In this document: piece by piece, positions 41,512-61,373 of the stretch | Layout: every line of letters starts with the position of its first letter | Numbering within the stretch: position 1 is the stretch's first letter | Assembly: GCF_018437505.1 (NCBI RefSeq) | Contig: NZ_CP072467.1 | Location: forward strand, 1,736,001 to 1,800,000 | From: Spiractinospora alimapuensis | Lineage (GTDB): Bacteria; Actinomycetota; Actinomycetes; Streptosporangiales; Streptosporangiaceae | Direction: 5' to 3' | DNA: 64,000 bases | The notes under the pieces: model-generated | Told to the model about the DNA's origin: nothing | Database searches by the model: none | The model's input: only the letters and a program-made list of their open reading frames with translations | Made by a program: the position numbers and the translations under genes

Positions 41512-42624
41512 TCAGGCGCCGTGGTCCACGATCGCGGCCGTGATGCCGCCACCGCTCGGGCCCTGGTGGACGGCCGCCACGGAGACGAACACCGCCGGGT
41601 CACCGGTGACGGCGGCGGTGACGCCACCGACGGTCGCCTTGATCTGGCGGTGCCAGTGCACGTCGGAGTCGTCCAGCATGATGTTGCGCCGGTCGCGCAC
41701 CCGGCCGCTCGGGTCGGCCTCACACTTCAGGAAGACGTTCACGAGCTTGTCGCCGAGGTCGGAGGTGTGCGGACGCTCCGGCAGATCCAGGCCGGCGGAA
41801 CGGATGGCCCGCCAGATGCCGTCGGAGTCCAACGCGTCCTTCATGACGTCGTGCCCGGCCTGGAACCGGCCACCGACGCCGCGGGCGTTGCCGACGACGA
41901 CGATCTGGGCCCGGTCCAGCTCCACACCGGAGGAGCAGGACGCGACCGAGGAGTACAGGGAGAGGTCGGCGTGGATCTGCTCCGCCGTCGGCTCGTCGAT
42001 CTCGCCCAGCGCCACGGCGATGCCCAGCGCGGTGGTCGAGTTGGAGATGTCCATCGACTTCAGCGTGTCCTCGGTGACCACGTCGTGGCCCCGCTTCTTC
42101 GCGTCGGTGATGGTGTCCAGCGTGAGCAGAGGGGTCTTCGTCTGCACGTAGTGGACGTCCGCCGGGTCGGTGATCCCGACCGAGGCCATCGCCTCGCGCA
42201 CACCGGCCGCGACGGTCTTCACCATGGCGGGACGGCCCACGTCCTCGGGGTTGATGACGTCACTCATGGTGACGCCGACCACGACCCGCGGCTCGTCGGT
42301 GGGCTCGTAGCGGCCCTCCGGGGCGTGGGCGAAGACGGTGGCGTGCGGCGAGATGACACCGTCCGTACCGCCCGACCACACCAGCGGGACCTGCTTGACC
42401 TCGTCTTCGCTGCGCTTCCCGCGCTCCATCAGGACCTCACGGAACGCCCGGTCGGCGAGGATGCGGGTGTAGTCGTTGACCCCACCGTTGCCCTCGGTCT
42501 TGCCCACGACGGCGAGGACGTCGTCGGCGGCGAACACACCTTCGTCGATCAACCGCGCGAGGCCGGAGGCGTCGGTGACGCTCTCGATCGCGACCTTGTG
42601 CACCTCTACTGGCCGGTTAGACAT
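41512..42624 (-). CDS. Ring-opening amidohydrolase (barbiturase / cyanuric acid hydrolase family)
   Basis: A 370-residue member of the AtzD/Bar family, which opens cyclic ureides such as barbiturate or cyanuric acid. Three repeats each carry the family's Lys/Ser sites: [15 protein letters not shown] near residue 42 with [11 protein letters not shown] near 85, YVQTKTPLL near 160 with [13 protein letters not shown] near 232, and a C-terminal repeat with [15 protein letters not shown] near 350. Substrate cannot be fixed from sequence. Barbiturase is favoured by the uracil-type permease and molybdenum hydroxylase 14 kb upstream. It starts at the ATG 42624, 16 bp after carbamate kinase. Confidence 0.9.
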
Positions 42625-42640
42625 GTGGCTCTCTTTCCTC

Positions 42641-43591
42641 TCACGGTTCTCTGGTCAGGACGGTGCCGGCCTGCCCGGCGATTCCCTCGGGCAGCCGCTC
42701 CAGAGCGGTGATGACGGCGCGGGTGCCGCCACCTTCGACGAAATCCAGGGCGGCCTCCACCTTCGGACCCATGCTGCCCGCCGCGAACTGCCCGTCGTCG
42801 ACGTGGCGGCGCAGCTCGGTGGTGGTGACCTCGTGCAGTTCCCGGGCGTCGGGGGTACCGAAGTTGACGACAGCGGCGGGCACGTCGGTCGCGATGACCA
42901 ACGTGTCGGCCTTCACCGTGCGCGCGAGCAGGGCCGCGGTACGGTCCTTGTCCAGGACCGCCTGCACCCCGTTCACCCGCGCGTCCGGGCCCACCGTCAC
43001 CGGGATCCCACCGCCCCCCGCGGCCACGGGGGTGACTCCCGCGGCCAGTAGGATCCGCACCGACTCGGCGTCCAGCACCTCACGGGGACGGGGTGAGGGC
43101 ACCACGCGGCGCCACCCCTTCGCGCCGAAGTCGACGAAGTGCTGTCCGTGCTCACGCAGCTTCGACGCCTCGGCCTCCGAGACGTAGCGGCCGACCGGCT
43201 TGTCCGGGGCCCCGAAGGCGGGATCGTCGGGATCCACCCGGACCCGCGTCACCATGGCCGTCGCGTGGCCGTCGAGACCCCGGCGCCACAGAGCGGCCTC
43301 CAAGGCGCTCACCATGATGTAGCCGATCGATCCCTGTGTCTGGGCACCGCACCAGTCCAGGCCCACGGGCGGCACCACGTCCGCCGCGAGCTCGTTCTTC
43401 ACCAGCAGGTTGCCGACCTGGGGGCCGTTGCCGTGCGTGAGCACGACCTCGATGCCCCGCTCGAGGAGAACGGCGACCGGTTCCATCGCCACCTCGACGG
43501 CGGCCCGCTGGTCCTCCGGACGGGCGTTCCCGTCCGACGAGGTCATGGCGTTCCCACCCAAGGCGACCAACACCCGACGCGCTTCGGCCAT
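42641..43591 (-). CDS. arcC: Carbamate kinase
   Basis: Catalyses reversible phosphate transfer between carbamoyl phosphate and ADP, usually run to make ATP in catabolism. The 316-residue amino-acid-kinase-fold protein has [10 protein letters not shown] at the N-terminus, [12 protein letters not shown] near 50, the central AAGGGGIPV near 200, and [11 protein letters not shown] near 275. The start is the ATG at 43591 (MAEARRV), with GGGA 5 nt upstream. It is the first gene of a two-gene unit with the ring-opening amidohydrolase. No carbamoyltransferase or arginine deiminase gene is nearby, so the source of carbamoyl phosphate is unexplained. Confidence 0.92.
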
Positions 43592-44649: not shown

Positions 44650-45516
44650 TCACGGCTTCGTGAGTTCCCGGGCGAACACATCCGAGACCGACGTTCCCGC
44701 GTGTCCCAGGAGAGCGGTCAGGACACGGCCGTTGCCGGGCAGGCCGTACGCGTCGTAGTAGGAGAACATGGCGGCGAGCGCCGTCACGACATGCTCGGGG
44801 ACCGCGCGGGACCGCGCGGTGGCGGCCCAGTCGGCGGGGTCGATCCGCACGGCGCGCACGTCCCGGCCCAGGGTCGCCCCCAGGTCACGGGCGACGGACT
44901 CGGCGGTCACCGCCTCCGGCCCCACCAGTTCGTAGGTGCCGCCTCGGTAGCGCTCCTCCGCCAGGCACCGAGCCGCGACCTCCGCGACGTCCCTGAGGTC
45001 GACCATCCCGAACGGGGCGTCGACCCGGTAGGGAACCCGCAACTCGCCGTGCTCCCGCACCCTGTCCAGGCCCTCCAGCAGGTTCTGCGTGTAGGGGCCC
45101 GGCTGGAGGACGGTGACGTCCATCCCCGTCTCGAACAACGCCGCCTCCACCAGGAGTTTGTCCCAGTGGTGGGGCATCGCTCGGATCTGGGGGCGCAGCA
45201 CCGAGTGGTAGACCACCCGACGCACACCCGTCGCCTGGGCCGCGCCGATCAACGCCTCGCCGATCGCGACCTCGGCGCCGCTCATGTTCGGCGCGATGTG
45301 GTAGACGCCCGTCGTGCCGCGCAACGCCTCGGCGACGTCGTCGCGGTCACGCATGTCGCCGACGCGCACTTCGGTGGCGCCGGCCGCGCGGGCGGCGTCC
45401 GCCTGCTCGGGTCGGCGGACGAGGGCCCGCGTCGGCAGATCCCGGGCGCGCAACGCCTCGATGACGGCGCGGCCGGTCTTGCCGGCCGCACCTGTGACCA
45501 GTACCGGCGACGTCAC
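44650..45516 (-). CDS. NmrA-like NAD(P)-binding oxidoreductase/regulator
   Basis: A 288-residue Rossmann-fold protein of the NmrA/TMR family. The dinucleotide motif is VLVTGAAGKTGRAV at the N-terminus, followed by RALVRRPEQAD and VGDMRD, and the YHSVLRP strand near 105. The canonical YxxxK of dehydrogenases is absent, as is usual in NmrA proteins. The GTG at 45516 overlaps the hyuB stop (GTGA), so it is coupled to the hydantoinase genes, an unusual partner. Whether it is an enzyme or a redox sensor is open. Confidence 0.83.
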   Translation of the reverse strand: MTSPVLVTGAAGKTGRAVIEALRARDLPTRALVRRPEQADAARAAGATEVRVGDMRDRDDVAEALRGTTGVYHIAPNMSGAEVAIGEALIGAAQATGVRRVVYHSVLRPQIRAMPHHWDKLLVEAALFETGMDVTVLQPGPYTQNLLEGLDRVREHGELRVPYRVDAPFGMVDLRDVAEVAARCLAEERYRGGTYELVGPEAVTAESVARDLGATLGRDVRAVRIDPADWAATARSRAVPEHVVTALAAMFSYYDAYGLPGNGRVLTALLGHAGTSVSDVFARELTKP

Positions 45517-47375
45517 AGCCGGTCCACCTCCGCGAAGTTCGCGCCTCCGGCGAGAGTGGCGAACCCCGCGCCACGGTCGAAGAACGGGGCGTCGGAGGGC
45601 CGCTTCGCGCGAAGCTCGGCCCGAAGCTCGGTCGTCGCCGTCTCGTCGGCGACCGGCTCGCCGTCGACCCAGGTGAACACGACGCCGTAGTCGTCCTTCG
45701 CGGCGTCCGCTGAGACCTTGCCCCAGCGAACGTCCCGCGCCACGCGCCACACCTCGCGGTCGAGGGGGTCGCCCCAGCCGCCTCCGCCGGTGGTGCGGAT
45801 GCGGATGACCTCGCCCGCCTGGACCGGTTCGTCGTCCACGAGACCGTCCATCTCGCGTTCGTTGGGACCGCCCGGGTCGATGGTCACCTGGAAGGGCCGC
45901 CCGGCGTGGCCGCCCCGAACGCCCCAGCACGACAGGATGGTGCGGTCCGCGATGGACATGAACGAGGCCTCACGCAGCATCCGGATGTGCTTCTCGTAGC
46001 CGAGCCCGCCACGGAACTCCCCCGGCCCGCCGGAGTCGACGGCGAGCCCCAGCCGCTCCACCCGGAACGGGAAACGGGACTCCGTGAACTCGGTGGGGAG
46101 GTTGCGCGAGTCCGGAACGACGTGGATGGTGTCCTCGCCGTCGGAGTAGTAGCGGCCTCCGGAGCCACCGCCGAGCACCTCGCGCATCAGGTAGTGCTTG
46201 CCGTCGGCGTCGCGCCCGTGCACCCCGGTGTAGCGGATCGTCTCCTGGTCCGCGGGCATACGTCCGTCGACCGCCTTGGCGAGCACGCCGGCGAAGACGC
46301 CGAGCAGCCGCAGGATGACGAACGTCCGGGCGTTGGTCGGCGCCGGGAACTCGGGCGTGAGCAGGGTCCCCTTGGGGGGGAACGTCATGTCGATGAGGGG
46401 GACGATGCCCTCGTTGACGTCCAGCTCGGCCATCCGCTCGGGGGTGTCGGCGAGGTTACGCAGGATGGGCGCCAGCCACTTCTTCAGGAAGTTGCCGTCG
46501 GCGTAGTCACCGCAGTGGTTGATCGGGCCCTTGGCCTGCGGCGAGGTACCGGTGAAGTCGATGTGCAGCTTGTCCGGCGTCTTCGTCAGGGTGATGCGCT
46601 GGGTGTGGAGCTTGGGTTCGTCCACTCCGTCGTGCTCCGCGTAGTCCTCCCACACGTAGGTCCCGTCGGGGATCTTGGTGAGGATCTCGCGGCGGTAGGT
46701 CTCGGTCGTGCGCTGGAGCAGGCCCTCGAAGCAGCTCTCGACGGCGGAGCGGCCGTAGCGCTCGAAGAGCTCGCTCAGTCGCCGAGCGCCCATGAGGCAG
46801 GCGGAGCATTCGGCGTCGAGGTCGGCGGCGAGGGAGTCGGGCATACGCGAGTTGCGCGTCATGATCCGCAGCGCCGCCTCATTCGGCACTCCCTGGTCCC
46901 AGAGCTTGATCGGAGGCACCATCAGGCCCTCCTCGTAGACCGAGGTCGCTCCGGAGGGCATGGACCCGGGGCAGGCACCACCGATGTCGTCGTGGTGGCC
47001 GAAGGCCTGGACGAAGGCGACGACCTCGCCGTCGTGGAACACCGGCACGGTGACGCACAGGTCGGGCAGGTGGCCGATGCCGCCTTCGGACTCGTAGACG
47101 TCGTTGTGGAAGAAGACGTCCCCCGGGCGCATGGTCTCCAGGGGGAAGTCCCGGGCGACCGGCTGCACCAGCGCGGAGTAGGAACGTCCGGTGAGCTTGC
47201 GCAGTCGCCGGTCGTGGATGCCCGCGCGGAAGTCGTGGGCGTCGCGGATCATGGGTGACCGGGACGTCCGGGCGATCGCGGTCTCGACTTCCTGTTCGAT
47301 CGAGGCGAGTGTGCCCTGAACGATCTCCAACAGGACCGGGTCGACGGTGTCGCGGATGGTGTCGGCGGCACTCAT
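45513..47375 (-). CDS. hyuB: Hydantoinase B / oxoprolinase family protein
   Basis: The B subunit of ATP-dependent hydantoinase/oxoprolinase-type enzymes, which hydrolyse cyclic amides. The 620-residue protein has PVLLEIVQGTLASIEQE at the start, the DVFFHNDVYESEGGIGHLPD metal-site region near 95, GHHDDIGG near 130, and a glycine-rich C-terminus with TTGGGGWGDPLDRE. The ATG at 47375 overlaps the hyuA stop by 4 nt, with GGGGGAGG upstream. Acetone-carboxylase-like roles are possible but less likely without a gamma subunit. Substrate unknown. Confidence 0.9.
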   Translation of the reverse strand: MSAADTIRDTVDPVLLEIVQGTLASIEQEVETAIARTSRSPMIRDAHDFRAGIHDRRLRKLTGRSYSALVQPVARDFPLETMRPGDVFFHNDVYESEGGIGHLPDLCVTVPVFHDGEVVAFVQAFGHHDDIGGACPGSMPSGATSVYEEGLMVPPIKLWDQGVPNEAALRIMTRNSRMPDSLAADLDAECSACLMGARRLSELFERYGRSAVESCFEGLLQRTTETYRREILTKIPDGTYVWEDYAEHDGVDEPKLHTQRITLTKTPDKLHIDFTGTSPQAKGPINHCGDYADGNFLKKWLAPILRNLADTPERMAELDVNEGIVPLIDMTFPPKGTLLTPEFPAPTNARTFVILRLLGVFAGVLAKAVDGRMPADQETIRYTGVHGRDADGKHYLMREVLGGGSGGRYYSDGEDTIHVVPDSRNLPTEFTESRFPFRVERLGLAVDSGGPGEFRGGLGYEKHIRMLREASFMSIADRTILSCWGVRGGHAGRPFQVTIDPGGPNEREMDGLVDDEPVQAGEVIRIRTTGGGGWGDPLDREVWRVARDVRWGKVSADAAKDDYGVVFTWVDGEPVADETATTELRAELRAKRPSDAPFFDRGAGFATLAGGANFAEVDRL

Positions 47376-49438
47376 GCGTCCTCCCCCTGGGTAATCACGA
47401 TGTTGCCGAATCGGTCGATGGTTGCGGAGAAGCCGGGGTGGAGCGGGATCGTGGATCCGAACTCCTCCACGACGGCGGGGCCGACGATGGTGTCGCCCGG
47501 GCTCAACAGTCCGCGCGCGTAGATCGGCGTGTCCTGGTAGCCGTACTTCTCGTCGAAGTACACCGGTCGTGTCGCCGTGTGGGCGCGTTCCAGCCCACCG
47601 GGGTGTCCCTCCAGGGGACGCGCCTGGGGCCGCTCGATCGGCCCCACCCCGGTCACGCGCAGGTTCACCCACTCCACGGGCTGGTTCTTGGCGTCCCGCA
47701 GGTCGTAGCCGTAGAGCTGGTGGTGGGCGTCGTGGAACGCGGCGGCCACGGTGGCCGCCAACTCGGCGTCGATCGGGCCGTCGGGAACGGGAACCCGCAC
47801 CTCGAAGGCCTGTCCCTCGTACCGCAGGTCCGCGGAACGCAGGAACTGGTGCTCGTCAGCCGCGAACCCCTCGGTTTCCAGGGCGGCCGCGGCCCGCTCG
47901 GTGAGGCCGTCGAGGATGTCGGCGACAGCGGCGTGGTCGAGGTTCTCGTGCGGCATCACCGCGGTGCGCACGTAGTCGTTGCGCACGTCCACGGTGAGAA
48001 GGCCGTAGGCGGAGACGTTGCCCGGGTCCGGCGGAACGAGCGCGCCGGCGGCGCCGAGGATGTCGATGAGGCGACAGATGAGCAGCGCCCCCGAGCCACC
48101 GAACGAGGTGATGTGGAAGTCGCGGATGTCCAGACCGCGCTTCACCGTGATCTGCCGCAGCGCGTTCGCCTGGTTCCAGGCCGAGATCTCCAGGACACCG
48201 GTCGCGGTCCGCTCGGGGTTCAGTCCGAGGGCCTCACCCAGTTTCACGACGCCGTCCCGAGCCGCCTCGGTGTCCAGCGGGAACTCGCCGCCCAGGAGGT
48301 GCGGTGGGATCCTGCCCAGCATGGCGTGGGCGTCGGTGATGGTGGGCTCGGTGCCGTCGGTGCCGTAGCACAGCGGGCCGGGTGAGGCACCGGCCGACTG
48401 TGGGCCGACCTTGAGCGTGCCCTCGGGGCTGATCCAGGCGATCGAACCGCCGCCCGCGCCGACGGTGACGATGTCGATCATCGGGGTCTTGACGGGGTAG
48501 CGGCCGATGGAGCCCTCGGTCGTGACGGTCGGCTCCCCGTCCAACACGACGGAGACGTCGGTGGAGGTGCCGCCACCGTCCAGGGTGACCACCTTGTTGA
48601 AGCCCGCCCTGCGCGAGATGAGGGCCGCGCCGAGCGCGCCGGCGGCGGGACCGGACAGCACGGTGGAGATCGGCTGGTGCACGACCTCTCCCGCGGAGAT
48701 GATGCCGCCGTTGGACTTCATGATGTGGAACGAGCCGTCGAGGCGTTCCCGGATCTGGGCGACGTACCGCGTCACCCGCGGCTTCACCGCCGCGTCCACG
48801 AGGGTGGTCATGGCCCGTTCGTACTCGCGGTACTCGCGGAGCACTCGCGAGCTCAGGGAGACGACCGCGTCGGGGTGCTCCGCCCGCAGGATCCGCAGCA
48901 CCCGCTCCTCGTGGTCGGGGTTGGCGTAGGCGTGCAGCAGGTTCACCCCGATGGTGGTGATGCCCTTGTCCCGGAACCACCGGGCCGCGCGCGCCACGTC
49001 CTCCTCGACGAGGGGGCGCACCTCCGCGCCGGTGTAGTCCAGCCGACCACCGACGGTGTGCACCATGTCGGGGGGCACGATCCGGTCCGGCTTGACCCAG
49101 AAGTAGGAGTTGCCGTACCCGTCCGGAACCGCCTGCCGGGCGATCTCCAGGACGAACTCGTACCCCTCGGTGGTGATGAAGCCCAGCCCGTCGATCTTGT
49201 CTTCGAGTAGCTGGTTGGTGGCGACGGTGGTCCCGTGCGAGACGGAGGTGACGGTGACGTCCTCGCCACACAGCCGGCGGATCTTCTCGATCCCCGCCAT
49301 GAATCCCTCGGCTGGGTCGGCGGGAGTCGACGGCGTCTTGGTGGTCACCAGCTCGCCGGTGTCCTCGTCCACCGCCACGACATCGGTGAAGGTCCCTCCG
49401 GTGTCGATCCCGACCCGCACCCGACGGTGCCCTGTCAT
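47372..49438 (-). CDS. hyuA: Hydantoinase A / oxoprolinase family protein
   Basis: The ATP-binding A subunit; known members activate 5-oxoproline, N-methylhydantoin or caprolactam before ring opening. It has 688 residues. The ASKHA-fold phosphate motif is VGIDTGGTFTDVVAVD at the N-terminus, TSVSHGTTVATNQLL is near 68, and a second nucleotide motif VTLDGGGTSTDVSVV is near 285, with GAGGGSIAW near 325. The ATG at 49438 (MTGHRRVRV) has GGGAG 8 nt upstream; a GTG at 49444 is less well placed. It is the first gene of hyuA-hyuB-nmrA. Confidence 0.91.
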   Translation of the reverse strand: MTGHRRVRVGIDTGGTFTDVVAVDEDTGELVTTKTPSTPADPAEGFMAGIEKIRRLCGEDVTVTSVSHGTTVATNQLLEDKIDGLGFITTEGYEFVLEIARQAVPDGYGNSYFWVKPDRIVPPDMVHTVGGRLDYTGAEVRPLVEEDVARAARWFRDKGITTIGVNLLHAYANPDHEERVLRILRAEHPDAVVSLSSRVLREYREYERAMTTLVDAAVKPRVTRYVAQIRERLDGSFHIMKSNGGIISAGEVVHQPISTVLSGPAAGALGAALISRRAGFNKVVTLDGGGTSTDVSVVLDGEPTVTTEGSIGRYPVKTPMIDIVTVGAGGGSIAWISPEGTLKVGPQSAGASPGPLCYGTDGTEPTITDAHAMLGRIPPHLLGGEFPLDTEAARDGVVKLGEALGLNPERTATGVLEISAWNQANALRQITVKRGLDIRDFHITSFGGSGALLICRLIDILGAAGALVPPDPGNVSAYGLLTVDVRNDYVRTAVMPHENLDHAAVADILDGLTERAAAALETEGFAADEHQFLRSADLRYEGQAFEVRVPVPDGPIDAELAATVAAAFHDAHHQLYGYDLRDAKNQPVEWVNLRVTGVGPIERPQARPLEGHPGGLERAHTATRPVYFDEKYGYQDTPIYARGLLSPGDTIVGPAVVEEFGSTIPLHPGFSATIDRFGNIVITQGEDA

Positions 49439-49464
49439 CAGCACAGCTCCCTGCTTCGAGTCCG

Positions 49465-49605: not shown

Positions 49606-50025
49606 TCAGGCCGCGGCGGGAGGCTCCCCCACGGGAATCCGCACCGTACGATCCCCGAAGTCGGCGACGAGGTCGAGATGGCCGCCCAGGGCCGCAACGT
49701 AACGGGCGATGACATCGATCGAGATGGTTTCCCCGTGCTCGATCTGGGAGATCCGAGCGGTACTCACGGCCATCGCTTCCGCCACATCCCGTTGCGTCAT
49801 ACCCAACTGCCTACGGGTCTCCGCCAAGCGGTGCCCACGCGACTCCGCCAGGAACCGACGCGCGTTCTCAGCCACCGTCGTTGGATCAGCGCCGGCCGCG
49901 TAGAGCTGTTCCTCCAGAACTTCCCAGTCCACTGGCTCCCGCCTAGGCACACTTGGCGTTCGCGAAGCCTTGAACCTATCGCCGTTACCGGCCCCACGGG
50001 GAGGAATCGGAGAATCTCCGCTCAC
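49606..50025 (-). CDS. XRE-family (HigA-like) DNA-binding protein
   Basis: A 139-residue protein. The N-terminal part, including VDWEVLEEQLYAAGADP, is typical of HigA-type antitoxins. A helix-turn-helix, LGMTQRDVAEAMAVSTARIS, lies near residues 77-96, and the C-terminus has RYVAALGGHLDLVADFGD. The GTG at 50025 overlaps the response-regulator stop (GTGA). No RelE/HigB-type toxin gene is adjacent on either side, so it is an orphan antitoxin-like regulator co-opted into a two-component operon. Confidence 0.85.
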   Translation of the reverse strand: MSGDSPIPPRGAGNGDRFKASRTPSVPRREPVDWEVLEEQLYAAGADPTTVAENARRFLAESRGHRLAETRRQLGMTQRDVAEAMAVSTARISQIEHGETISIDVIARYVAALGGHLDLVADFGDRTVRIPVGEPPAAA

Positions 50026-52022: not shown

Positions 52023-52029
52023 GCACTAC

Positions 52030-52058: not shown

Positions 52059-52061
52059 TGA

Positions 52062-52113
52062 CTCCAGCTCCACGCTCGCGGTGGGCCTAGCCCTACCTCG
52101 GGCGTGGAGCTGG
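52062..52113. terminator. Inverted repeat between secA2 and the kinase promoter
   Basis: Twelve-bp arms CCAGCTCCACGC and GCGTGGAGCTGG flank 26 bp that itself contains GGGC-CTA-GCCC. It begins immediately upstream of the kinase -35 box and ends 90 bp after the secA2 stop. It may be a secA2 terminator, an operator, or both. Confidence 0.5.
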
Positions 52114-52203
52114 CAATGTCCCTGGCCGCCACCGGCGCCTCCGTGACGTCGATCACGGACACACTGGGGCGACGAACGACGCGCCGTCGGCCGCCACCTC
52201 GTC

Positions 52204-54525
52204 TCAGGAGCCCCCACGCAGCCGCGTCCGTGCCCTGCCGACCAGCCGGTCCATCTCCGAACCGAAGGGCCGGTCGTGCACCATGTAGGTCCACGTGGAC
52301 GAGGGCCGTTTCACCCCGACCGACTCGGCGTCGATCGAGCCGTCGACCACGGGCACCTCCTCGAAGGTCTCCGCGGCACGCGTGCGTGCCCCGTCCAGGA
52401 AGCCCTTGAAGACGGGGACGGCGTCGGCGTTGAACTCGTCGAGCGGGTCACGACGCCCCAGGACGCGAAGGTGGATCCCCTCGCGCAGCTCCTCGAGGAA
52501 CGCCAGATGGTCCGTCCAGCCACGGTCGAGGTGGTAGAGGGTGATGTGTCGCGCGGCACGCTCCACCTCCTCCGTACCGACCTCCTCCACGAGCTGCTCG
52601 TAGCGCTTGGGGCAGTCGGCGGCGAGGTGGCGGGCACCCAGTCCGTCGTTGAGGACGTGGCCGCGTTGTTCGAGTACGGTGGCCCGCTGGACGTCGATGA
52701 GCTGGCTGTAGCGCCAGGTGTTGCGATGCAGGTCAAGCAACTGCCCCTCGGCGATGCGCTGGGCACGGTCGACGCTCTCGCGCCACGCGGCGTCGGTGAC
52801 CTCGCCCTCGGCGCTGACCTCGAGCTCCGCGTTGCTGAGCTCGGGAAGGTTCGCGGTGATCAGGTCGTCATCGACGCTGACGTAGAACCGGGTGCTTCCG
52901 GGGTCGCCCTGTCGGCCCGCGCGGCCACGGAGTTGGTCGTCGAGCCGGCTCGAGGGGTAGCGGCCGAAGCCCATAACGTACAGACCACCGACGTCGGCGA
53001 CGCGCTCGCGGTCGGACATGTCGCTGCCACCGAGCCGGATGTCGGTCCCCCGCCCCGCCATCTGTGTGGAGACGGTGATCCGCTCGTAGGTGCCGGCCTC
53101 GGCGATGATGGACGCCTCGTTGGCGTCGTTCTTGGCGTTGAGTACCACGCAGTCGAGGTTCTCCCGCCGCAGCCGGGTGGCGATGCGTTCGGACTCGGCG
53201 ACGTCCTGGGTCCCGATGAGGATGGGTCGGCCGGTGGCGTGGATCTCCGCCACCTCCTCGACCAGGGCGTCCTCCTTCTCCTCCCGGGTCGCGTACAGCC
53301 GGGTGGGGTAGTCGACCCGGATCACCTCGGCGTTGCGCGGGATGTCGGCGACCTCGAGGTCGTAGAACTCGCGGAGCTGGTCGCCGACGGCGATCGCGGT
53401 GCCGGTCATTCCGGACAGGGTGGGGTAGCGCAGCATGAGCGCCTGCACCGTGATGGAGTCCAGGACGACTCCGGTGTCGCTGGTCTCCAGCTTCTCCTTG
53501 ACCTCGACCGCGGCCTGGAGACCGTCCGGCCACCGCTGCAACAGGGCGATGCGGCCCCGCGACTCGTCGATGAGTTTGACCGCGCCGTCACGCACGACGT
53601 AGTCCACGTCCCGGCGTAGGAGCACCCGAGCGTGCAGGGCGAGGTTGACCTGGGTGAGGAGCTCGGAGTTCTCCTCGTCGTAGAGGTCGATCTCGCCGAG
53701 GTGCTCCTCGGCGAAGGTGAGGCCCTCGTCGGTGAGCTGAACGTTGCGCCCCTCGTCGTCGACCTCGTAGTGGGTGCGGGCCCGCATGCCCGCGACGATC
53801 TGGGCGACCTCGTGGTTGGCCTCGGTCGCCTCCGCGGCTCCGGCCAGCACCAGCGGAACACGCGCCTCGTCCACCAGCACGGAGTCGGCCTCGTCGATGA
53901 GGGCGACCTCGGGGGCGGGGAGAACGAGCTCCTCGGGGTCCAGCCGCATCCGGTCCCGCAGGACGTCGAAGCCGAGTTCGTTGACCGAGGCGTAGGTGAC
54001 GTCGCCGGCGTAGGCGCCGCGTCGCTCCTCCGGGGTCGACTCCTGGCCGATCCAGCCCACGGCGAGGCCGAGCAGCTCGTACAGCGGACGCATCCACTCG
54101 GCGTCCCGTCGGGCCAGGTAGTCGTTGACCCCGAGAACGTGGACGCGCTTGCCGCGCAGCGAGAAACCGGCCGCGGCGATGGCACCGGCGAGGGTCTTTC
54201 CCTCACCGGTGGCCATCTGGGCGACGTGCCCGTCCAGGAGCGCCATCACGCCCAGGAGCTGCACGTCGTAGGGCCGCTCGTCCACGGTGCGGCGCGCGGC
54301 CTCCCGCGCCAGCGCGAGGAACTCCACGAGGTCGTCGCGCTCGTAGGGAAGTTCCGCTTCGGCGAGCCTGGTGGCGGCCTCGGTGATCTCCGTGTCGGAG
54401 AAGTCGCGTACCTCCGACTCCCGTGCCTCGATCGGCCCGAGGAGCTTTCGGTAGGGCCGCAGGTCCACCGAGCCGGGCCGGCCCAGGGCCCGCCGGACAT
54501 TCTTCGTCAGCGTTGCGAACACCAC
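52204..54525 (-). CDS. secA2: Accessory Sec translocase ATPase SecA2
   Basis: A 773-residue SecA-type ATPase, matching the length of actinobacterial SecA2 rather than the longer housekeeping SecA. Motifs include MATGEGKT at residues 104-111, ALIDEADSVLVDEAR near 190, VSTQMAGRGTDIRLGG near 475 and RGRAGRQGDPGSTRFYVS near 520. The C-terminus lacks the zinc-binding SecB domain. In mycobacteria SecA2 exports a small protein subset with the canonical SecYEG channel. The start is a GTG at 54525, with a second GTG directly after it. Confidence 0.92.
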   Translation of the reverse strand: MVFATLTKNVRRALGRPGSVDLRPYRKLLGPIEARESEVRDFSDTEITEAATRLAEAELPYERDDLVEFLALAREAARRTVDERPYDVQLLGVMALLDGHVAQMATGEGKTLAGAIAAAGFSLRGKRVHVLGVNDYLARRDAEWMRPLYELLGLAVGWIGQESTPEERRGAYAGDVTYASVNELGFDVLRDRMRLDPEELVLPAPEVALIDEADSVLVDEARVPLVLAGAAEATEANHEVAQIVAGMRARTHYEVDDEGRNVQLTDEGLTFAEEHLGEIDLYDEENSELLTQVNLALHARVLLRRDVDYVVRDGAVKLIDESRGRIALLQRWPDGLQAAVEVKEKLETSDTGVVLDSITVQALMLRYPTLSGMTGTAIAVGDQLREFYDLEVADIPRNAEVIRVDYPTRLYATREEKEDALVEEVAEIHATGRPILIGTQDVAESERIATRLRRENLDCVVLNAKNDANEASIIAEAGTYERITVSTQMAGRGTDIRLGGSDMSDRERVADVGGLYVMGFGRYPSSRLDDQLRGRAGRQGDPGSTRFYVSVDDDLITANLPELSNAELEVSAEGEVTDAAWRESVDRAQRIAEGQLLDLHRNTWRYSQLIDVQRATVLEQRGHVLNDGLGARHLAADCPKRYEQLVEEVGTEEVERAARHITLYHLDRGWTDHLAFLEELREGIHLRVLGRRDPLDEFNADAVPVFKGFLDGARTRAAETFEEVPVVDGSIDAESVGVKRPSSTWTYMVHDRPFGSEMDRLVGRARTRLRGGS

Positions 54526-54542
54526 AGCAGCCTAACGCGCGT

Positions 54543-54571
54543 GACCCCCTCGACGGTTCCACGAGGGGGTC
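54543..54571 (-). terminator. Hairpin after the Cvn-type GTPase gene
   Basis: A perfect 10-bp stem (GACCCCCTCG) with a 9-nt loop lies between the GTPase stop (54615) and the secA2 start. Confidence 0.65.
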
Positions 54572-54614
54572 AATATCGAACAGCGCGCCGTACGGAGGAA
54601 TCCGCGGGGTGGCG

Positions 54615-55199
54615 TCACACGGTGCGGGCCACCGGCCGACTGCGAACGGCGGTGCCCATCGTGTGGGTCACCAGTGAGATCAGCACCTGCCGCACCGATT
54701 CCCGATCCCGCGCGTCACAGCGCACGATCGGCACCTCCGGCGCGACGCCGAGCGCGTCGCGCAGCGTGGACTCCGGGTACTGGTAGGCGTTGGGGAACAC
54801 GTTGTCGGCGATCACGAACGGCAGCTTGTACGTCCGCTCGAAGTAGTCGATCGCCGGGAAACTGTCCGGCAGCCGCCGGGTGTCGATCAGGACGACGGCG
54901 CCGAGCGCTCCGCGCACCAGCTCGTCCCACATGAACATGAAGCGGGACTGCCCGGGCGTACCGAACAGGTACAACGCCAGGTCGGTGTCCAGCGTGATCC
55001 GGCCGAAGTCCATCGCGACCGTGGTGCTGGCCTTGTCGGGTGTGTTGGACAGATCGTCAACGCCGGAACTCGCCGAGGTCATCGCCGCTTCGGTGCGGAC
55101 CGGATCCACCTCGGAGATGGAGCCGATGAAGCTCGTCTTGCCCGCACCGAAGCCGCCGGCAACGATGATCTTGGTTGACAGCCTGGGGGAACCGTTCAA
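54615..55199 (-). CDS. Cvn/CvnD-type P-loop GTPase
   Basis: A 194-residue small GTPase of the conservon family. The P-loop is VAGGFGAGKTSFIGS near residue 15, with a switch region TTVAMDFGRI and the G3-like FGTPGQSRFMFMWDEL near 80. In most actinobacteria such genes are fourth in a cvnABCD operon with a kinase-like, a roadblock and a DUF742 protein, but none of these partners is here. The TTG at 55199 has GAGGAA 6 nt upstream and gives the usual short N-terminus; a GTG at 55229 is an alternative. Confidence 0.85.
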   Translation of the reverse strand: MNGSPRLSTKIIVAGGFGAGKTSFIGSISEVDPVRTEAAMTSASSGVDDLSNTPDKASTTVAMDFGRITLDTDLALYLFGTPGQSRFMFMWDELVRGALGAVVLIDTRRLPDSFPAIDYFERTYKLPFVIADNVFPNAYQYPESTLRDALGVAPEVPIVRCDARDRESVRQVLISLVTHTMGTAVRSRPVARTV

Positions 55200-55318: not shown

Positions 55319-55999
55319 TTAGGATTCGCGTCCGCGTGAGTCCGGGCGTGGGAAGGCGCGCCGGGCCGCACGGGCGCCGATCACGACGCCCAGGAGCGCG
55401 ATGGCCGCACCCACGAGGATCCCGCGAACGAAGGAGTCGCCCGACCAACCGCCTGCGGCCGGTACCCCGGCGACGGCGCCCGCGGACGGTACGACGGTGG
55501 TGGCCTGCCCCTCGGTGGTCGACGCGCCCGCGGCGGCCTTCGGCTCGCCCCGCGTGGACGTCCCGAGGATCTCCGCCTCCAACGCGGCGAAGAACTGGCC
55601 GGCCATCTTCTTGGAGACCGCGGAGAGGACCCGCTGCCCCACACCACTGATGGTGCCGCCCACGATCGCCTCTGCGTCGTAACTCACACCGCAGGTGCCG
55701 TCGGCGTTGTCGGTGAGTCGAACTGAGACGTCCGCCTGTACGGTTCCGGGAGCGCCGGAGCCGGACGCGCGCAGCACCAGCGAGCTCGGCTCGACCAGGT
55801 CGGTGAGCGACACGTTGCCGTCGAAGGTGCCCTTGATGGAGGCGACTCCGGCGGTGATCGCACCCCGGTACTGGTGCGGGCCGACCTCCTCCAGTTCCTG
55901 GGCGCCGGGAATGGTGCGCGCCAGGACCTTGGGGTCGAGCAGGGCCCGCCACACATCGGCGGCCGGTGCCTTCACGTTTGCTGTTCCGGTGACACGCAT
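55319..55999 (-). CDS. coxG: CoxG-type (SRPBCC) protein with C-terminal membrane helix
   Basis: A 226-residue protein. The N-terminal SRPBCC domain reads VTGTANVKAPAADVWRALLD, then LARTIPGAQELEEVG and GAITAGVASIKGTFDG, the CoxG/PF06240 pattern. A proline/alanine linker follows, and then a single helix SFVRGILVGAAIALLGVVIG near residues 190-210. CoxG recruits molybdenum hydroxylases to the membrane in known systems. The ATG at 55999 lies 4 bp after the coxL stop, so it ends the coxM-coxS-coxL-coxG unit. Confidence 0.88.
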   Translation of the reverse strand: MRVTGTANVKAPAADVWRALLDPKVLARTIPGAQELEEVGPHQYRGAITAGVASIKGTFDGNVSLTDLVEPSSLVLRASGSGAPGTVQADVSVRLTDNADGTCGVSYDAEAIVGGTISGVGQRVLSAVSKKMAGQFFAALEAEILGTSTRGEPKAAAGASTTEGQATTVVPSAGAVAGVPAAGGWSGDSFVRGILVGAAIALLGVVIGARAARRAFPRPDSRGRES

Positions 56000-56003: not shown

Positions 56004-58439
56004 TCAGCGTTCTCCTGTCTTCGCAGGGTGGGAGGAGGGACGAAGCGGGGGGATCTCGCCGGCCTTGAATCGGCGCCGGAGGGTGTACAGCTCCGACGGG
56101 GAGATGGGCATCCGCGTGACGGCGAATCCCTCGGCGTCGGAGATCGCCGACGCCAGAACGGCGGCGCCCGGGATGACGCCGGCCTCACCCGCGCCCTTGA
56201 TCCCGAGCGAGTTCAACGGGCTCGGAGTCTCCAGGTGGTCGATCTCCACCTTGGGGATCTCCGAGGCGTAGGGAATGAGGAAGTCCATGAAGGAGGCGTT
56301 CTGTAGCTGCCCGTGATCGTCGTAGGCCATGCGCTCGAAGAGCGCCCCCGCAACGCCCTGGGCGACACCGCCGTGCACCTGCCCCTGCACGATCGTGGGG
56401 TTCACGAGCGTGCCGCAGTCGTGCACCACGCAGTACCGCAGAATGTTGACCTCCGCGGTCTCCGGGTCGGTCTCCACGATCACCGCGTGCATGCCGTTGG
56501 CGAACGTCGCCCGGATCGGCGAGTAGAAGCCACTGCCTTCCAGACCGGGCTCGTCCCCCTCTGCGACCGGCGGCTTGTTGTAGTCGGTCGCGCCACCGAA
56601 CTGGGTGGCGGCCTTCGACGCCTCGTCGAAGGCGTAGCGCAGCGGATTGGCGAGGACCGCGATCGTCCCCAGCCGGATCGACGACGACGGGTCGCCCTTG
56701 ACGCGGACCTCACCGTCGACGAGCTCCAGGTCCTCCGGTGACGCCTCCAACGCGTCCGCCGCGACCCGCAGCGCCTTCTCCTTGACGTCCAACGCCGCCG
56801 CGGCGACGGCGTTGCCACTCATGACCGCGCCACGAGAGGCGAACGTGCCGACCGAGTAGGCGATCAGGCGTGTGTCGCCCGTGGTGACGGTGACGTCGTC
56901 CATCGGGACGCCGAGCTGGTCGGCGACGATCTGGGCGAAGGCGGTCTCGTGGCCCTGGCCCTGGCTGGTGAGCCCGGTGGCGACCCTGACCTTGCCGGAC
57001 GTCTCGACGATGATGCGACCGCCCTCGTAGGGGCCGACACCGGTTCCCTCCACGTAGCAGGCGAGTCCGATGCCCACGGTGCGGCCCTCGGCTCGGGCCT
57101 TCTCGCGGTAGTCCTCGAAGTCGTCCCAGCCGACGAGCTTCTTGATCTTCTCCATGGACGCCGGGAAGTCCCCGGAGTCGTAGATCAGCGGGCGCCCGTC
57201 CTGGAACATGAGCCCATGGTCGTAGGGCATCTCGTCGGGCTGGATGAAGTTGGCCTCCCGCACGACCGTCCGGTCCTTGCCGAGGTAGTCGGCGATGGCG
57301 TCCAGGGTGCGTTCCATGGCGAACACGCCCTGTGGGCGTCCAGCGCCGCGGTAGGGCGTCACCAGCACCGTGTTGGTGTAGAGGCTGGTGAACTCCACCC
57401 GGTAGTTGGCCGGCTTGTACGGGCCGAGCAACTGGGTGGAGGTCACGATCGGGATGATGATGCCGTAGGGCAGGTACGCCCCGTTGTCGTGCCAGAACTC
57501 CACGTCCAGCCCGAGCAGGCGCCCCTCGTCGTCGAAGCCGACGCGTACTCGCTGTAGCTGGCCCCGCTCGTGGGCGGAGGCGATGAAGTGCTCCCGGCGG
57601 TCCTCGGCCCAGCGCACGTCGCGGCCGAGCGTCCGCGCGGCCCACGACACCATGAGCTCCTCCGGCCACGGGTGCACGATCTTCGTCCCGAAGCCACCGC
57701 CCACGTCCGGGATCACGGCCTGCACCTTGGACAGGGGAAGCTCGAGCTTGGCGGCGACGGCCGCGCGCAGACCCGCGGAGGTCTGACTCGAACTGTAGAT
57801 CCGCAGGGTCTCCTCCCGGCCGTCCCACTGCGCGTAGACGGCCTTGCCCTCCATCGGCATACCCGCGGAGCGCTCGATGTCGAGGTCGAGTTCCAGGGTG
57901 TGCGGCGCGGCCTCGACCGCGGCACGCGCGTCCCCGGATTCCTGGACCAGGTGCGCCGCGACGTTGTCCGCCATGTCGGCGTGGGCGTAGGTCGACCCGT
58001 CGCGGGACTCGGCGATGCCCACGACCGGGTCCAGCATGTCGTACTGGACCCGGATCCGCTCGACCGCGTCCTCGGCGACGTAGCGGTCCCGCGCCACCAC
58101 CATCGCGATCGCCTCACCGACGTGGCAGACCTCGTCCTTGGCCAGGGCGTGCGGTGTACGGCCGTCGACGATGCCCGGGTGGGGGATCAACAACGGCAGG
58201 GGCTCCGCCATCGCCCCGGTGAGGTCGTCGTGGGTGTAGATCGCGACCAGGCCCTCGACCTCGAGCGCGTCCGACACGTCGATGTCCCGGATGCGGGCGT
58301 GGGCGTGCGGACTGCGCAGGAAGGCGCTGGCCAGGGCGTCGGTGTTCGCGGCGAGGTCGTCGGTGTAACGGCCCTTGCCACGGATGAGACGGTCGTCCTC
58401 GACGCGCGCCACTGGCTCACCGAACATCTGGGTGGTCAC
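56004..58439 (-). CDS. Molybdenum hydroxylase large subunit (CoxL/XdhB family, form II type)
   Basis: An 811-residue molybdopterin-binding subunit of the xanthine oxidase family. It begins TTQMFGEPVARVEDDRLIRG, has the GGGFGTK motif near 250, the active-site loop TPYRGAGRPQG near 365, QGQGHETAFAQI near 530 and the catalytic glutamate in GAGEAGVIPG near 750. Form I CO dehydrogenases carry AYxCSFR in the active-site loop; here it is PYRGAGR, so CO is an unlikely substrate. A purine, pyrimidine or other azaheterocycle is more likely. The GTG at 58439 overlaps the coxS stop. Confidence 0.9.
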   Translation of the reverse strand: MTTQMFGEPVARVEDDRLIRGKGRYTDDLAANTDALASAFLRSPHAHARIRDIDVSDALEVEGLVAIYTHDDLTGAMAEPLPLLIPHPGIVDGRTPHALAKDEVCHVGEAIAMVVARDRYVAEDAVERIRVQYDMLDPVVGIAESRDGSTYAHADMADNVAAHLVQESGDARAAVEAAPHTLELDLDIERSAGMPMEGKAVYAQWDGREETLRIYSSSQTSAGLRAAVAAKLELPLSKVQAVIPDVGGGFGTKIVHPWPEELMVSWAARTLGRDVRWAEDRREHFIASAHERGQLQRVRVGFDDEGRLLGLDVEFWHDNGAYLPYGIIIPIVTSTQLLGPYKPANYRVEFTSLYTNTVLVTPYRGAGRPQGVFAMERTLDAIADYLGKDRTVVREANFIQPDEMPYDHGLMFQDGRPLIYDSGDFPASMEKIKKLVGWDDFEDYREKARAEGRTVGIGLACYVEGTGVGPYEGGRIIVETSGKVRVATGLTSQGQGHETAFAQIVADQLGVPMDDVTVTTGDTRLIAYSVGTFASRGAVMSGNAVAAAALDVKEKALRVAADALEASPEDLELVDGEVRVKGDPSSSIRLGTIAVLANPLRYAFDEASKAATQFGGATDYNKPPVAEGDEPGLEGSGFYSPIRATFANGMHAVIVETDPETAEVNILRYCVVHDCGTLVNPTIVQGQVHGGVAQGVAGALFERMAYDDHGQLQNASFMDFLIPYASEIPKVEIDHLETPSPLNSLGIKGAGEAGVIPGAAVLASAISDAEGFAVTRMPISPSELYTLRRRFKAGEIPPLRPSSHPAKTGER

Positions 58440-58945
58440 TGGGTCGGCTCTCCTTCCCGCCGCAGTTCCGCCGCACGCATCACCGCGGCGACGATGTTCT
58501 GGTACCCCGTACAGCGGCAGAGGTTGCCACCGATGGCCTCGCGCGCCTCGTCCTCGGTGGGCTCGGGGTTCTCCCGCAGGAAGGCGGTGGCAACGGTCAG
58601 GAATCCGGGCGTACAGAAACCGCACTGGAGCCCGTGGCAATCCTTGAACCCCTGCTGCTCCGGGCTCAGCTTCTCCCCGTCGCTCAGCCCCTCGACCGTA
58701 GTGATCTCGTGCTTCGCCGCGGTGAGGGCGAAGGTGAGGCAGGAACGGGCGGGTTCCCCGTCCAGCAGCACCGTGCAGGCGCCGCAGACACCGTGCTCAC
58801 ATCCCACGTGGGTCCCGGTGAGGCCGACGTCCTCACGCAGACAGTCCGACAGCAGGCGTCGCGCGGGCACGGTCACCGGGTAGGCGACTCCGTTGACGCG
58901 TAGGACTGCCTCGTGCCTCTCCTCGCGGGCTTCGCTGTCACTCAT
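58436..58945 (-). CDS. Molybdenum hydroxylase iron-sulfur subunit (CoxS/XdhC family)
   Basis: A 169-residue protein with two [2Fe-2S] clusters. The N-terminal ferredoxin site is CEHGVCGACTVLLDGEPARSC near residue 55, and the C-terminal four-helix site has CGFCTPGF near 110 and CRCTGYQNI near 145. It carries electrons between the molybdenum and FAD subunits. The ATG at 58945 overlaps the coxM stop, and its own stop overlaps coxL, so all three subunits are translationally coupled. Confidence 0.93.
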   Translation of the reverse strand: MSDSEAREERHEAVLRVNGVAYPVTVPARRLLSDCLREDVGLTGTHVGCEHGVCGACTVLLDGEPARSCLTFALTAAKHEITTVEGLSDGEKLSPEQQGFKDCHGLQCGFCTPGFLTVATAFLRENPEPTEDEAREAIGGNLCRCTGYQNIVAAVMRAAELRREGEPTQ

Positions 58946-59811
58946 CAGGCTCCTGGGGTCGGTTCGGTCGCGTTGTGGATCGCGCGGCGGAGGACCCGCG
59001 CGGTGAGTACCTGGGCGAGGTGCCCCCGGTACTCGGCCGTGACGTGGATGTCGCCCTCCGGCTCGAGGTCGGCCACGGCGCGTTCCGCCACGGCGGCCAC
59101 GTCAACGGCGTCGGGCGCGGTGCCGCCCAGGCCCAGGTCCACCACGACGGGGACCGGGCCCATCGACAGGTAGACGACGCGGGCCTCCGCGATGGCCTCG
59201 GGGCCACTCAGGGTGACGAGGCACGCGGCTCCGCAGGTCGCATAGTCGCCGTGCCGGCGGGCGATCTCCTCGAACGCGGTTCCGTGACGTCCACGGGGGC
59301 GGGGGAACACCGCGGCGAGCGCGAGTTCGTCGGGTCGGGCGTCGCTCTCCATGGGGCCGACGAAGAAGTCCTCGGCGGCCACGGTGCGGGTTCCGGAGAC
59401 GCTCGCCAGCTCCATGTGGCCGCGGAGGAGCGCGAGGACCGCGGTCATCTCGGAGGCGGGGTCGGCGTGCACGAGACTGCCGACAGTCGTCCCTCGGTTG
59501 CGGATCACGGGGTGGGCGACGTTGTGCAGGGCGTCGCTGAGGAGCGGGAAGGTGGCCGCGGTCTCACGTTCCACTCGGCGGTGGCGGGCGAGCGCGCCGA
59601 CCCGGACCTGGGTCTCGTCAATGGTGACGGTGTCGAGGTCGGCGAGCCCGTTGATGTCGACGAGGTGAGTGGGCGCCGCGAGACGCATGTTCAACGCCGG
59701 GATCAGACTCTGGCCACCCGCCAACACTTTGCACTCCTCGAGGTCGGCCTGCAGCCGCAGCGCCTCCTCGACGGTTGCTGGCTGGTGATAAGTGAAGGCG
59801 GGTGGTTTCAA
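58945..59811 (-). CDS. Molybdenum hydroxylase FAD subunit (CoxM/XdhA family)
   Basis: A 288-residue FAD-binding protein. The FAD motifs are AGGQSLIPALNMRLA near residue 30 and TTVGSLVHADPASEM near 108, as in CoxM. The start is taken as the TTG at 59811 (MKPPAFTYHQP), with GGAAGGG 7 nt upstream; upstream in-frame codons give a non-homologous extension. It is the first subunit gene of the coxMSLG order, 89 bp after the permease gene on the same strand. Confidence 0.9.
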   Translation of the reverse strand: MKPPAFTYHQPATVEEALRLQADLEECKVLAGGQSLIPALNMRLAAPTHLVDINGLADLDTVTIDETQVRVGALARHRRVERETAATFPLLSDALHNVAHPVIRNRGTTVGSLVHADPASEMTAVLALLRGHMELASVSGTRTVAAEDFFVGPMESDARPDELALAAVFPRPRGRHGTAFEEIARRHGDYATCGAACLVTLSGPEAIAEARVVYLSMGPVPVVVDLGLGGTAPDAVDVAAVAERAVADLEPEGDIHVTAEYRGHLAQVLTARVLRRAIHNATEPTPGA

Positions 59812-59900
59812 AGCGTTGCCCTTCCGGCTGGTTGTGTGGCTGTCGCTCCAACGGGCGAGACCCGGTCCGCGGGGCGCGAACCGGGTCACCGGGTCGCCGC

Positions 59901-61373
59901 TCAGTCGCGGGAATCTGGCTCCTTGTCGGGCGCCGCACTCCCCCGGTCGGCCGTGCGCACGGCTCCGGAGGTCTCCTCGCCGGCCTCACCGGGCGCGTGG
60001 GAGGCGGACACCGGGTCGTCGAGAGTGACGGTGTCGCGGAGGTACGCGGGCGCCAGTCGGCGCATGAGGTGGTAGCCGAGGAGCAGGATGATCGTGCCCA
60101 GGGCGATGCCCTCGATCTCGAAGGTCTCGGTGATGTGCAACGAGACACCTCCGATACCGGCGATGAGACCGGCGGCGACCGGGACGATGACCACCGGGTT
60201 GGCGAAGTTGACTCGGTTCTCCACCCAGATCTTGGCACCGAGCAAGCCGATCATCCCGTACAGGACCACCGTGATGCCACCGAGCACGCCCTCGGGGATC
60301 GACGCCACGAGAGCGCCGAACTTGGGGGACAGCCCGAAGAGGATCGCGACGAGAGCCGCCACGTAGTACGCGGCCGTGGAGTACACACGCGTGGTCGCCA
60401 TGACACCGATGTTCTCGGCGTAGGTGGTCGTCGGGGAACCACCGACACCCGCGGCCAGTGTGGTCGCGACGCCGTCGGCGAAGAGGGCCCGACCCATGTA
60501 AGGGTCAAGGTCGTCCTTGGTCATCTCCTGCACGGCCTTGACGTGGCCGGCGTTCTCCGCGATCAACGCGATCACGGCGGGAAGGGCGACCAGGATGGCC
60601 TGGGTCTGGAAGTCGGGCGCGTGCATCGTGGGCAGTCCGAACCACGCGGCCTCGCCGACTCCGGACAGGTCAACACGGAAGGCGTCGACGAAGGTTCCCT
60701 CCTCCGCTCCGGGAACCTGGTGCATGCCGAAGACGAGGTCGAAGATCCAGGAGACGACGAAGCCGAAGACCAGGCCGAGGAGGATGGTGATGCGACCGAG
60801 GAAACCGCGCAGCAGCACCGTCGACACGATGACGAAGCCCATCGTCAGCAGGCCCACCCACTGGTCGAACGGCCAGTAGTTCTGCGCGACGACCGGGGCG
60901 AGGTTGAACCCGATCAACAGCACCACGCCGCCGGTCACCACGGAGGGGAACGCCCGGAGTACGGCGTTCGGTCCCAGGAGGTGGACCAGGATGCCCGAGA
61001 CGGCGAGGACGGCACCCGCGACCATGATCGAACCGGTCACGGTGGCGCTGTCACCGCCCCCGTCGCGGATCACGACGACGGCGCCGACGAACGCGGCGCT
61101 CGTTCCGAGATAACTGGGCACCTTCCCCTGCACGATGAGCAGGAAGATGATCGTGCCGATCCCCGACATCATGATGGCGAGGTTGGGGTCCAGCCCCATG
61201 ATCAGGGGGAAGACGAAGGTGGCACCGAACATCGCGATGACGTGCTGGGCCCCGAGTCCGGTCGTACGCCCCCACGACAGGCGCTGTCCTGGACGTACGG
61301 CCTGTCCTGGGGGTGGCGCGCTTCCGTCGCCATAGAGTTCCCAGCTCAGGCCGAGTTTGCGCCGAAGGTTCAT
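59901..61373 (-). CDS. NCS2-family uracil/xanthine permease
   Basis: A 490-residue nucleobase:cation symporter of the UraA/PurP family with about 12-14 helices. The TM8 region has LIAENAGHVKAV and the TM10 signature is GGSPTTTYAENIGVM; the glutamates of both bind the base in UraA. The sequence GGxxxTTYxENIG is more like uracil than uric-acid permeases, which usually carry GxxxxTTFSQNVG. The ATG at 61373 has GGAG 6 nt upstream; an in-frame ATG at 61385 is possible. It heads the coxMSLG genes and is probably their transporter. Confidence 0.9.
   Translation of the reverse strand: MNLRRKLGLSWELYGDGSAPPPGQAVRPGQRLSWGRTTGLGAQHVIAMFGATFVFPLIMGLDPNLAIMMSGIGTIIFLLIVQGKVPSYLGTSAAFVGAVVVIRDGGGDSATVTGSIMVAGAVLAVSGILVHLLGPNAVLRAFPSVVTGGVVLLIGFNLAPVVAQNYWPFDQWVGLLTMGFVIVSTVLLRGFLGRITILLGLVFGFVVSWIFDLVFGMHQVPGAEEGTFVDAFRVDLSGVGEAAWFGLPTMHAPDFQTQAILVALPAVIALIAENAGHVKAVQEMTKDDLDPYMGRALFADGVATTLAAGVGGSPTTTYAENIGVMATTRVYSTAAYYVAALVAILFGLSPKFGALVASIPEGVLGGITVVLYGMIGLLGAKIWVENRVNFANPVVIVPVAAGLIAGIGGVSLHITETFEIEGIALGTIILLLGYHLMRRLAPAYLRDTVTLDDPVSASHAPGEAGEETSGAVRTADRGSAAPDKEPDSRD

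Follow-up and report, generated by a model that had tools for sequence, protein, structure and literature searches.

How far do the genes of one stretch of Spiractinospora alimapuensis DNA account for the oxidative breakdown of uracil, and which of them would cleave ureidomalonate? The window (the whole stretch of 64,000 nucleotides analyzed, G000:C1:1736001-1800000 of a 5.86-Mb genome on one contig) carries two groups of genes, one encoding an NCS2 permease, a CoxMSL molybdenum hydroxylase and a CoxG-like protein, the other encoding HyuA, HyuB, a carbamate-kinase family protein (Cbk) and a barbiturase (Bar). An initial annotation had proposed these genes, and all of them were recovered on the minus strand with Pfam and NCBIfam, on which our gene identities rest. 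To our knowledge, no gene has been assigned to the first enzyme of the oxidative uracil route. The route itself has been known since the 1950s and is described as ending in malonate and urea (PMC3758960).

We favor, with reasonable confidence, the reading that the window carries the greater part of an oxidative pathway for uracil, and perhaps thymine, that is conserved among actinobacteria and includes an AllFG(H) branch. For the group of genomes as a whole such a pathway is likely, while for this strain we are somewhat less sure, because AllH was not found in its genome and its homologue of the family III CoA-transferase (CaiB) lies far from the locus. From the gene families and their arrangement we infer the substrates of all steps and their order. 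The permease would import the base, CoxMSL, a form-II-like molybdenum hydroxylase, would oxidize uracil or thymine to barbiturate, and Bar would open barbiturate to ureidomalonate. AllF-AllG(-AllH) would convert ureidomalonate and phosphate to malonamate and carbamoyl phosphate, from which carbamate kinase would form ATP, ammonia and CO2; malonamate would pass to malonate, with a malonamidase-like amidase serving this step in some relatives, and either a family III CoA-transferase or an acyl-CoA synthetase would convert malonate to its CoA thioester, malonyl-CoA. That this route conserves energy, with phosphorolytic cleavage of ureidomalonate yielding one ATP per uracil, and that the cluster also reveals the uracil/thymine dehydrogenase gene, we place slightly above an even chance. 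Our searches of the open-licence PMC literature turned up no paper that appears to describe this gene cluster; the cluster offers a candidate gene for the first oxidative step and predicts a new ATP-yielding branch.

Barbiturase and the genes that accompany it

Bar (41512..42603, minus strand; PF09663, 488 bits) is a Toblerone-fold amidohydrolase whose best solved match is the Rhodococcus barbiturase 5hwe (566 bits; cyanuric acid hydrolases reach 308 at most). Barbiturases (group VI) are marked, in AtzD numbering, by Asn195, His321, Lys325, Val345 and Ser/Ala346, positions at which the cyanuric acid hydrolases AtzD and TrzD have Arg195, Thr321, Arg325, Gly345 and Gly346 instead (PMC3758960). 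The window Bar carries all five group VI residues (N188, H318, K322, V342 and A343). Four of them are invariant among readable relatives at 130 loci, which include some genomes fetched twice; the fifth position holds Ala at 116 loci (NHKVA), Ser at 4 (NHKVS) and Gly at 10 (NHKVG). PMC4051656 instead marks the barbiturase subgroup by a glutamine at the Arg188 position, where both the window Bar and 5hwe have Asn in our alignment. With five of five group VI residues and a barbiturase as its closest structure, the protein first annotated as barbiturase/AtzD-family can be placed among the group VI barbiturases and is predicted to hydrolyze barbiturate, not cyanuric acid. Cyanuric acid catabolism was rejected because the specificity positions read N, H, K, V and A; the NCBIfam model CyanAcHdlAtzD scores Bar at 467, above its cut-off of 360, and the automatic name 'cyanuric acid amidohydrolase' would be misleading for this sequence. 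The oxidative pyrimidine route of Rhodococcus erythropolis likewise uses a group VI barbiturase and oxidizes the ring before opening it (PMC3758960, PMC4051656), whereas at the present locus a candidate dehydrogenase gene is linked to the barbiturase and an AllFGH/carbamate kinase branch is predicted in place of ureidomalonase and urea.

Co-occurrence was surveyed in 297 genomes of the order, including that of S. alimapuensis, each searched for Bar, CoxL, AllG and HyuB, with window-type CoxL and HyuB counted at E<=1e-220. Bar was found in 202 genomes, window-type CoxL in 201, AllG in 203 and HyuB in 190. Window-type CoxL was present in 201 of the 202 Bar genomes but in none of the 95 others, and the sole Bar genome without it is a 77%-complete assembly; the corresponding counts were 190/202 versus 0/95 for HyuB and 198/202 versus 5/95 for AllG. 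Fisher p-values for these associations ranged from 2e-64 to 3e-78 and overstate independence, as the genomes share ancestry. Across the phylum (396 genomes, again including our own), AllG accompanied Bar in all 22 genomes with a Bar of at least 500 bits versus 27 of 374 others, and was found in none of the 3 having only a 41-45% identical Bar relative. A lack of co-occurrence in related genomes had been named beforehand as grounds for abandoning the link between the two halves; in the 297 order genomes the halves do co-occur, and together with their linkage in differing gene orders elsewhere this supports the proposal that CoxMSL and barbiturase belong to one pathway.

Linkage was conserved to varying degrees. 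In 18 genomes hand-picked from the co-occurrence lists, S. alimapuensis included, with all three genes on one contig, CoxL lay between Bar and AllG in 18/18, at 14.5-108.5 kb from Bar and 8.4-22.2 kb from AllG. In Halopolyspora (L004), a 20-kb stretch contains HyuBA, NCS2, Bar, PucR and CoxGLSM, arranged differently and without a visible Cbk. Streptomonospora (L006) shows the unbroken series CoxL-CoxG-GTPase-SecA2-HyuAB-Cbk-Bar, and Embleya (L009) has Cbk-Bar and CoxGL. We also read stretches of 3-60 kb in 21 distantly related genomes from the phylum, whose Bar is 68-74% identical to that of the window. By tblastn, homologues of Cbk were counted at 16 of these loci, AllG at 15, NCS2 at 14, PucR at 12, window-type Cox subunits at 10, HyuB at 8 and CaiB at 6. 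At the bit scores used, none of 20 control stretches of 20 kb each (19 taken from nine of these distant genomes and one from S. alimapuensis) contained Bar, Cbk, AllF/G/H, CoxL/M/S, HyuB, CaiB, NCS2 or PucR, indicating that the clustering is not due to chance. The fullest clusters (G305, G371, G414, G522 and G320) combine PucR, Bar, NCS2, Cbk, AllH, AllF, AllG, CoxMSLG, the amidase, HyuA, HyuB and CaiB, with minor differences in their order, and 8 of the 11 loci without window-type Cox lie on contigs of 3-23 kb. In G358 the tblastn count scores AllH as missing, yet an AllH HMM matches L144 3465-4313, directly upstream of AllF. A simple codon-score script supplied the refined borders and the gene calls at the loci; it overlooked some real genes (AllF in L113, AllH in L144).

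Barbiturase relatives also occur on plasmids. Bar matched 132 plasmid records, 130 of them at <60% identity, including 67 Rhizobium by name and many others from enterobacteria; the 13 of those <60% identical that are among the matches listed are at about 45%. In two plasmid records with the barbiturase the stretch carries no annotation.

Proposed cleavage of ureidomalonate

The initial annotation had remarked that no ureidomalonase is visible; AllF-AllG(-AllH) with carbamate kinase would fit this step. AllF and AllG, which we count as part of the system, lie outside the window. AllG (PF06545, 321 bits) is found at G000:C1:1814183-1814827, 14 kb to the right, with AllF immediately before it (tblastn, 47%), the pair lying ~33 kb from Cbk. 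Cbk itself (42641..43591, minus strand; PF00696) scores 342 bits against the arcC equivalog (cut-off 358.25) and 299 against the subfamily PRK12352 (cut-off 266). In E. coli, AllFGH convert oxalurate and phosphate to oxamate and carbamoyl phosphate, from which carbamate kinase makes ATP; allFGH share an operon with the carbamate kinase gene allK, and AllF, AllG and AllH are each needed (PMC11326118). Ureidomalonate is oxalurate with one additional CH2; cleaved in like manner, it would yield malonamate plus carbamoyl phosphate, and by this analogy an AllF-AllG(-AllH) carbamoyltransferase and carbamate kinase may fill the missing ureidomalonase step. The actinobacterial clusters share AllF, AllG, usually AllH, and carbamate kinase with the E. 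coli allFGHK operon of anaerobic allantoin use; they differ in being linked to genes for barbiturase and a molybdenum hydroxylase, and in their predicted substrate, ureidomalonate instead of oxalurate.

The order AllG-AllF-AllH / PucR-NCS2-CoxM-CoxS-CoxL was collinear in all ten order loci fetched, which were selected for AllG and CoxL on one contig; CoxG was seen in 7/10, and an NCS2 homologue 61-78% identical to that of the window adjoins CoxM in 10/10. By this collinearity, the NCS2-CoxMSLG operon of the window forms a divergent pair with AllHFG. In S. alimapuensis ~13 kb of other genes (L113 2241-14088) separate NCS2 from PucR, which are neighbors in the ten order relatives. The divergent PucR beside its AllFG (G000:C1:1810446-1812191) matches 14 barbiturase-adjacent PucR proteins at 251-455 bits and 34-51% identity. 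The PucR-type regulator annotated just beyond Bar is present (38557-39903, minus strand), but its resemblance to the barbiturase-adjacent proteins is weak (107 bits and 35% identity at best), and it was rejected as the cognate regulator. The usual place of AllH, between PucR and AllF, is filled in 10/10 fetched order loci and empty in S. alimapuensis; as all three All proteins are required in E. coli, this strain's version may be incomplete.

For the product of this step, six distant clusters (G305, G347, G371, G414, G320 and G522) have an amidase gene near CoxG. The G305 amidase has malonamidase E2, of the amidase signature family, as its closest solved relative (282 bits, the next at 144), its homologues in the other five clusters are 54-86% identical, and its best NCBIfam match is the AtzE family, below cut-off. 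Such a malonamidase-like sequence is an independent hint of malonamate, a three-carbon acid; a counterpart was not found at the window locus. Of 80 named loci, 26 have CaiB within 10 kb of Bar, in 22 cases with an identity of at least 55%, and 16 have a member of the acyl-CoA synthetase family near Bar. Carboxyltransferase-domain proteins adjoin the CoA-transferase in L009 and G414.

The published ending suggests a different assignment, in which the steps down to ureidomalonate would be unchanged, HyuAB or an unseen hydrolase would act as the ureidomalonase, giving malonate and urea as PMC3758960 describes, and AllFG would serve another purpose such as oxalurate breakdown. HyuA (47372..49444; PF05378, PF01968, PF19278) and HyuB (45513..47375; PF02538), both on the minus strand, have the domains of an ATP-dependent hydantoinase/oxoprolinase in neighboring genes, below all NCBIfam equivalog cut-offs, and their likeness to ATP-dependent amidases and strict co-occurrence with Bar fit this assignment, as does the failure to find AllH in the S. 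alimapuensis genome. We nevertheless regard it as rather unlikely: in distant clusters AllFGH and Cbk accompany Bar, in relatives from the order AllHFG adjoins NCS2-CoxMSL, and urea as the product would leave Cbk without an evident role and the malonamidase-like amidase without any. We rejected the idea that HyuAB simply replaces AllFGH, since HyuB and AllG are found together in 188 of the 202 Bar genomes.

Less probable still is a purine or hydantoin route, in which CoxMSL would oxidize a hydantoin- or purine-derived ring, HyuAB would open a five-membered ring to form oxalurate, AllFG(H) and Cbk would act as in E. coli, and Bar would work on a side substrate. Oxalurate is indeed the known substrate of AllFGH (PMC11326118), the best solved match of HyuA is the N-methylhydantoinase 7hk5 (478 bits), and two distant NCS2 permeases resemble xanthine permeases; but the barbiturase residues described above are kept throughout the 130 loci, with variation at the fifth position alone, and the malonamidase-like amidase would imply a three-carbon acid.

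The CoxMSL hydroxylase

In the oxidative uracil pathway that we favor, the first step would fall to CoxMSL, encoded on the minus strand by CoxM (FAD subunit, 58945..59811; PF00941, PF03450), CoxS (2Fe-2S subunit, 58436..58945; PF01799, PF00111) and CoxL (molybdopterin subunit and candidate uracil/thymine dehydrogenase, 56004..58439; PF02738, PF20256), followed by the CoxG-like accessory protein (55319..55975; PF06240). The adjoining NCS2 gene (59901..61232, minus strand; PF00860, with TTYAENIG in its translation) encodes a RutG/UraA-like candidate uracil importer, which scores 376 bits against RutG (cut-off 758.65), 264 against uracil permease and 163 against pbuX in NCBIfam; the NCS2 of G358 also scores best as RutG.

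Form I aerobic CO dehydrogenases carry an AYxCSFR loop with a copper-binding Cys. The window CoxL has PYRGAGR, without this Cys, where the aligned CO dehydrogenase 1n5w shows YRCSFR, and so lacks the form I loop; KGAGE is present. Against the classical CO dehydrogenase model it scores 419 versus a cut-off of 991, and on the loop motif and this score a CO dehydrogenase identity was rejected. The NCBIfam model NF040766, 'aerobic carbon-monoxide dehydrogenase large subunit', gives it 1466 bits (cut-off 950), with a range of 1436-1493 for the window and two distant barbiturase-linked CoxL proteins tested, and the name is probably wrong for the barbiturase-linked clade. That CoxMSL is an aerobic CO dehydrogenase standing beside a barbiturase for unrelated reasons, as the NF040766 score might suggest, is very improbable given the PYRGAGR replacement of the Cys motif, the classical model score and the co-occurrence with Bar in 201/202 versus 0/95 genomes.

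The closest solved relatives of CoxL are quinoline 2-oxidoreductase (426 bits) and 6-hydroxypseudooxynicotine dehydrogenase (423 bits), enzymes of N-heterocycle breakdown. Barbiturase-linked CoxL proteins are 65-79% identical to that of the window, whereas the closest of five paralogous loci examined in the same genome, among 10 other CoxL-like places, reaches ~37% identity over the full length. In a tree, a single group with 100/100 support unites ten CoxL proteins of the barbiturase system and leaves out four paralogues from the same genome and two XDH-type proteins; the tree holds 16 of 19 CoxL-type rows, after L006 and L009 (both partial) and L176 (250 residues) were dropped, and its XDH-type rows and some paralogues form long branches. 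Form II CoxL-type proteins and NCBIfam CODH_aero_grp5 share the CoxM-CoxS-CoxL-CoxG order and the PYRGAGR loop, but here the enzyme is tied to barbiturase in the genomes searched and predicted to oxidize pyrimidines, not CO. We infer that CoxMSL would oxidize uracil to barbiturate. These findings suggest that pyrimidine hydroxylases make up at least part of the genes annotated as aerobic CO dehydrogenase (NF040766), a point that matters for surveys that trace CO oxidation by its genes.

Counter-evidence and neighboring genes

Several observations weigh against the proposed pathway. AllH was found neither in the S. alimapuensis genome (PF11392) nor in the ~120 kb around the locus (AllH HMM). 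The malonamidase-like amidase occurs in only 6 of the 21 distant clusters, and the best amidase match in the S. alimapuensis genome (47% over 245 residues) lies far away, as does its CaiB homologue, at 0.7 Mb. CaiB and the ligase score below the cut-offs of malonate-specific models: the CoA-transferase is below every NCBIfam cut-off, with the succinate-glutarate type best, and the acyl-CoA ligase reaches 735 with a general acyl-CoA synthetase model (cut-off 575) and 335 with malonyl-CoA synthase (cut-off 558). For two distant NCS2 proteins that were scored, xanthine permease is the best match (258 and 235 bits), and one of them reaches 126 with uracil permease, all of these values being below cut-off; an NMT1/THI5-like binding protein is present at 3 of the 21 distant loci. 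HyuAB is part of the system by strict co-occurrence, yet fits no clear step, and kinship among the genomes makes the co-occurrence counts less independent than the Fisher p-values suggest.

The hydroxylase, too, has its exceptions. PYRGAGR is not specific, as the own-genome paralogue L177 carries the same loop, and no window-type Cox lies near the complete-looking loci of G393 and G381, of which 40 kb and 60 kb, respectively, were read. G600 (L129) pairs Bar-AllH-AllF-AllG with an XDH-type CoxM/S/L set whose CoxL is 27% identical, possibly a replacement of the hydroxylase. Marinactinospora (G021, read as L202 and L057, which are identical where they overlap) keeps Bar and CoxL, yet AllG and HyuB were not found in its genome; in its CoxL stretch, CoxMSLG is accompanied by incomplete matches to AllH (54 bits, 113 residues) and PucR, which gives the impression of a decayed block.

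As the initial annotation had recognized, unrelated genes split the two halves in the window: positions 50022-55199 encode SecA2, a small GTPase and a two-component system made up of a histidine kinase and a response regulator. SecA2 and the GTPase are also near CoxL in Streptomonospora (L006), G052 (L200) and L202, and SecA2 with the two-component system recurs in L003 and L007, so that the arrangement looks like a lineage trait. The window SecA2 has no relative among the called genes of the 21 distant genomes' stretches, and weak relatives of both two-component genes occur there only in G575. G305, G347 and G371 have a different gene pair near CoxM, one member of which reads like a short response regulator.

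Marinactinospora also encodes a molybdenum enzyme of the XDH type, at a distance of 5 kb from Bar. Between HyuB and Cbk, the window encodes an NmrA-like NAD(P)-binding protein (44650..45516, minus strand; PF05368), with homologues in L002, L003, L004, L009, L116, L124, L126 and L135. In G414 alone (L123 7564-13830), Bar is surrounded by an amidohydrolase, a class III aminotransferase and a carbon-nitrogen hydrolase, the last with N-carbamoylputrescine amidase as its best NCBIfam match, below cut-off.

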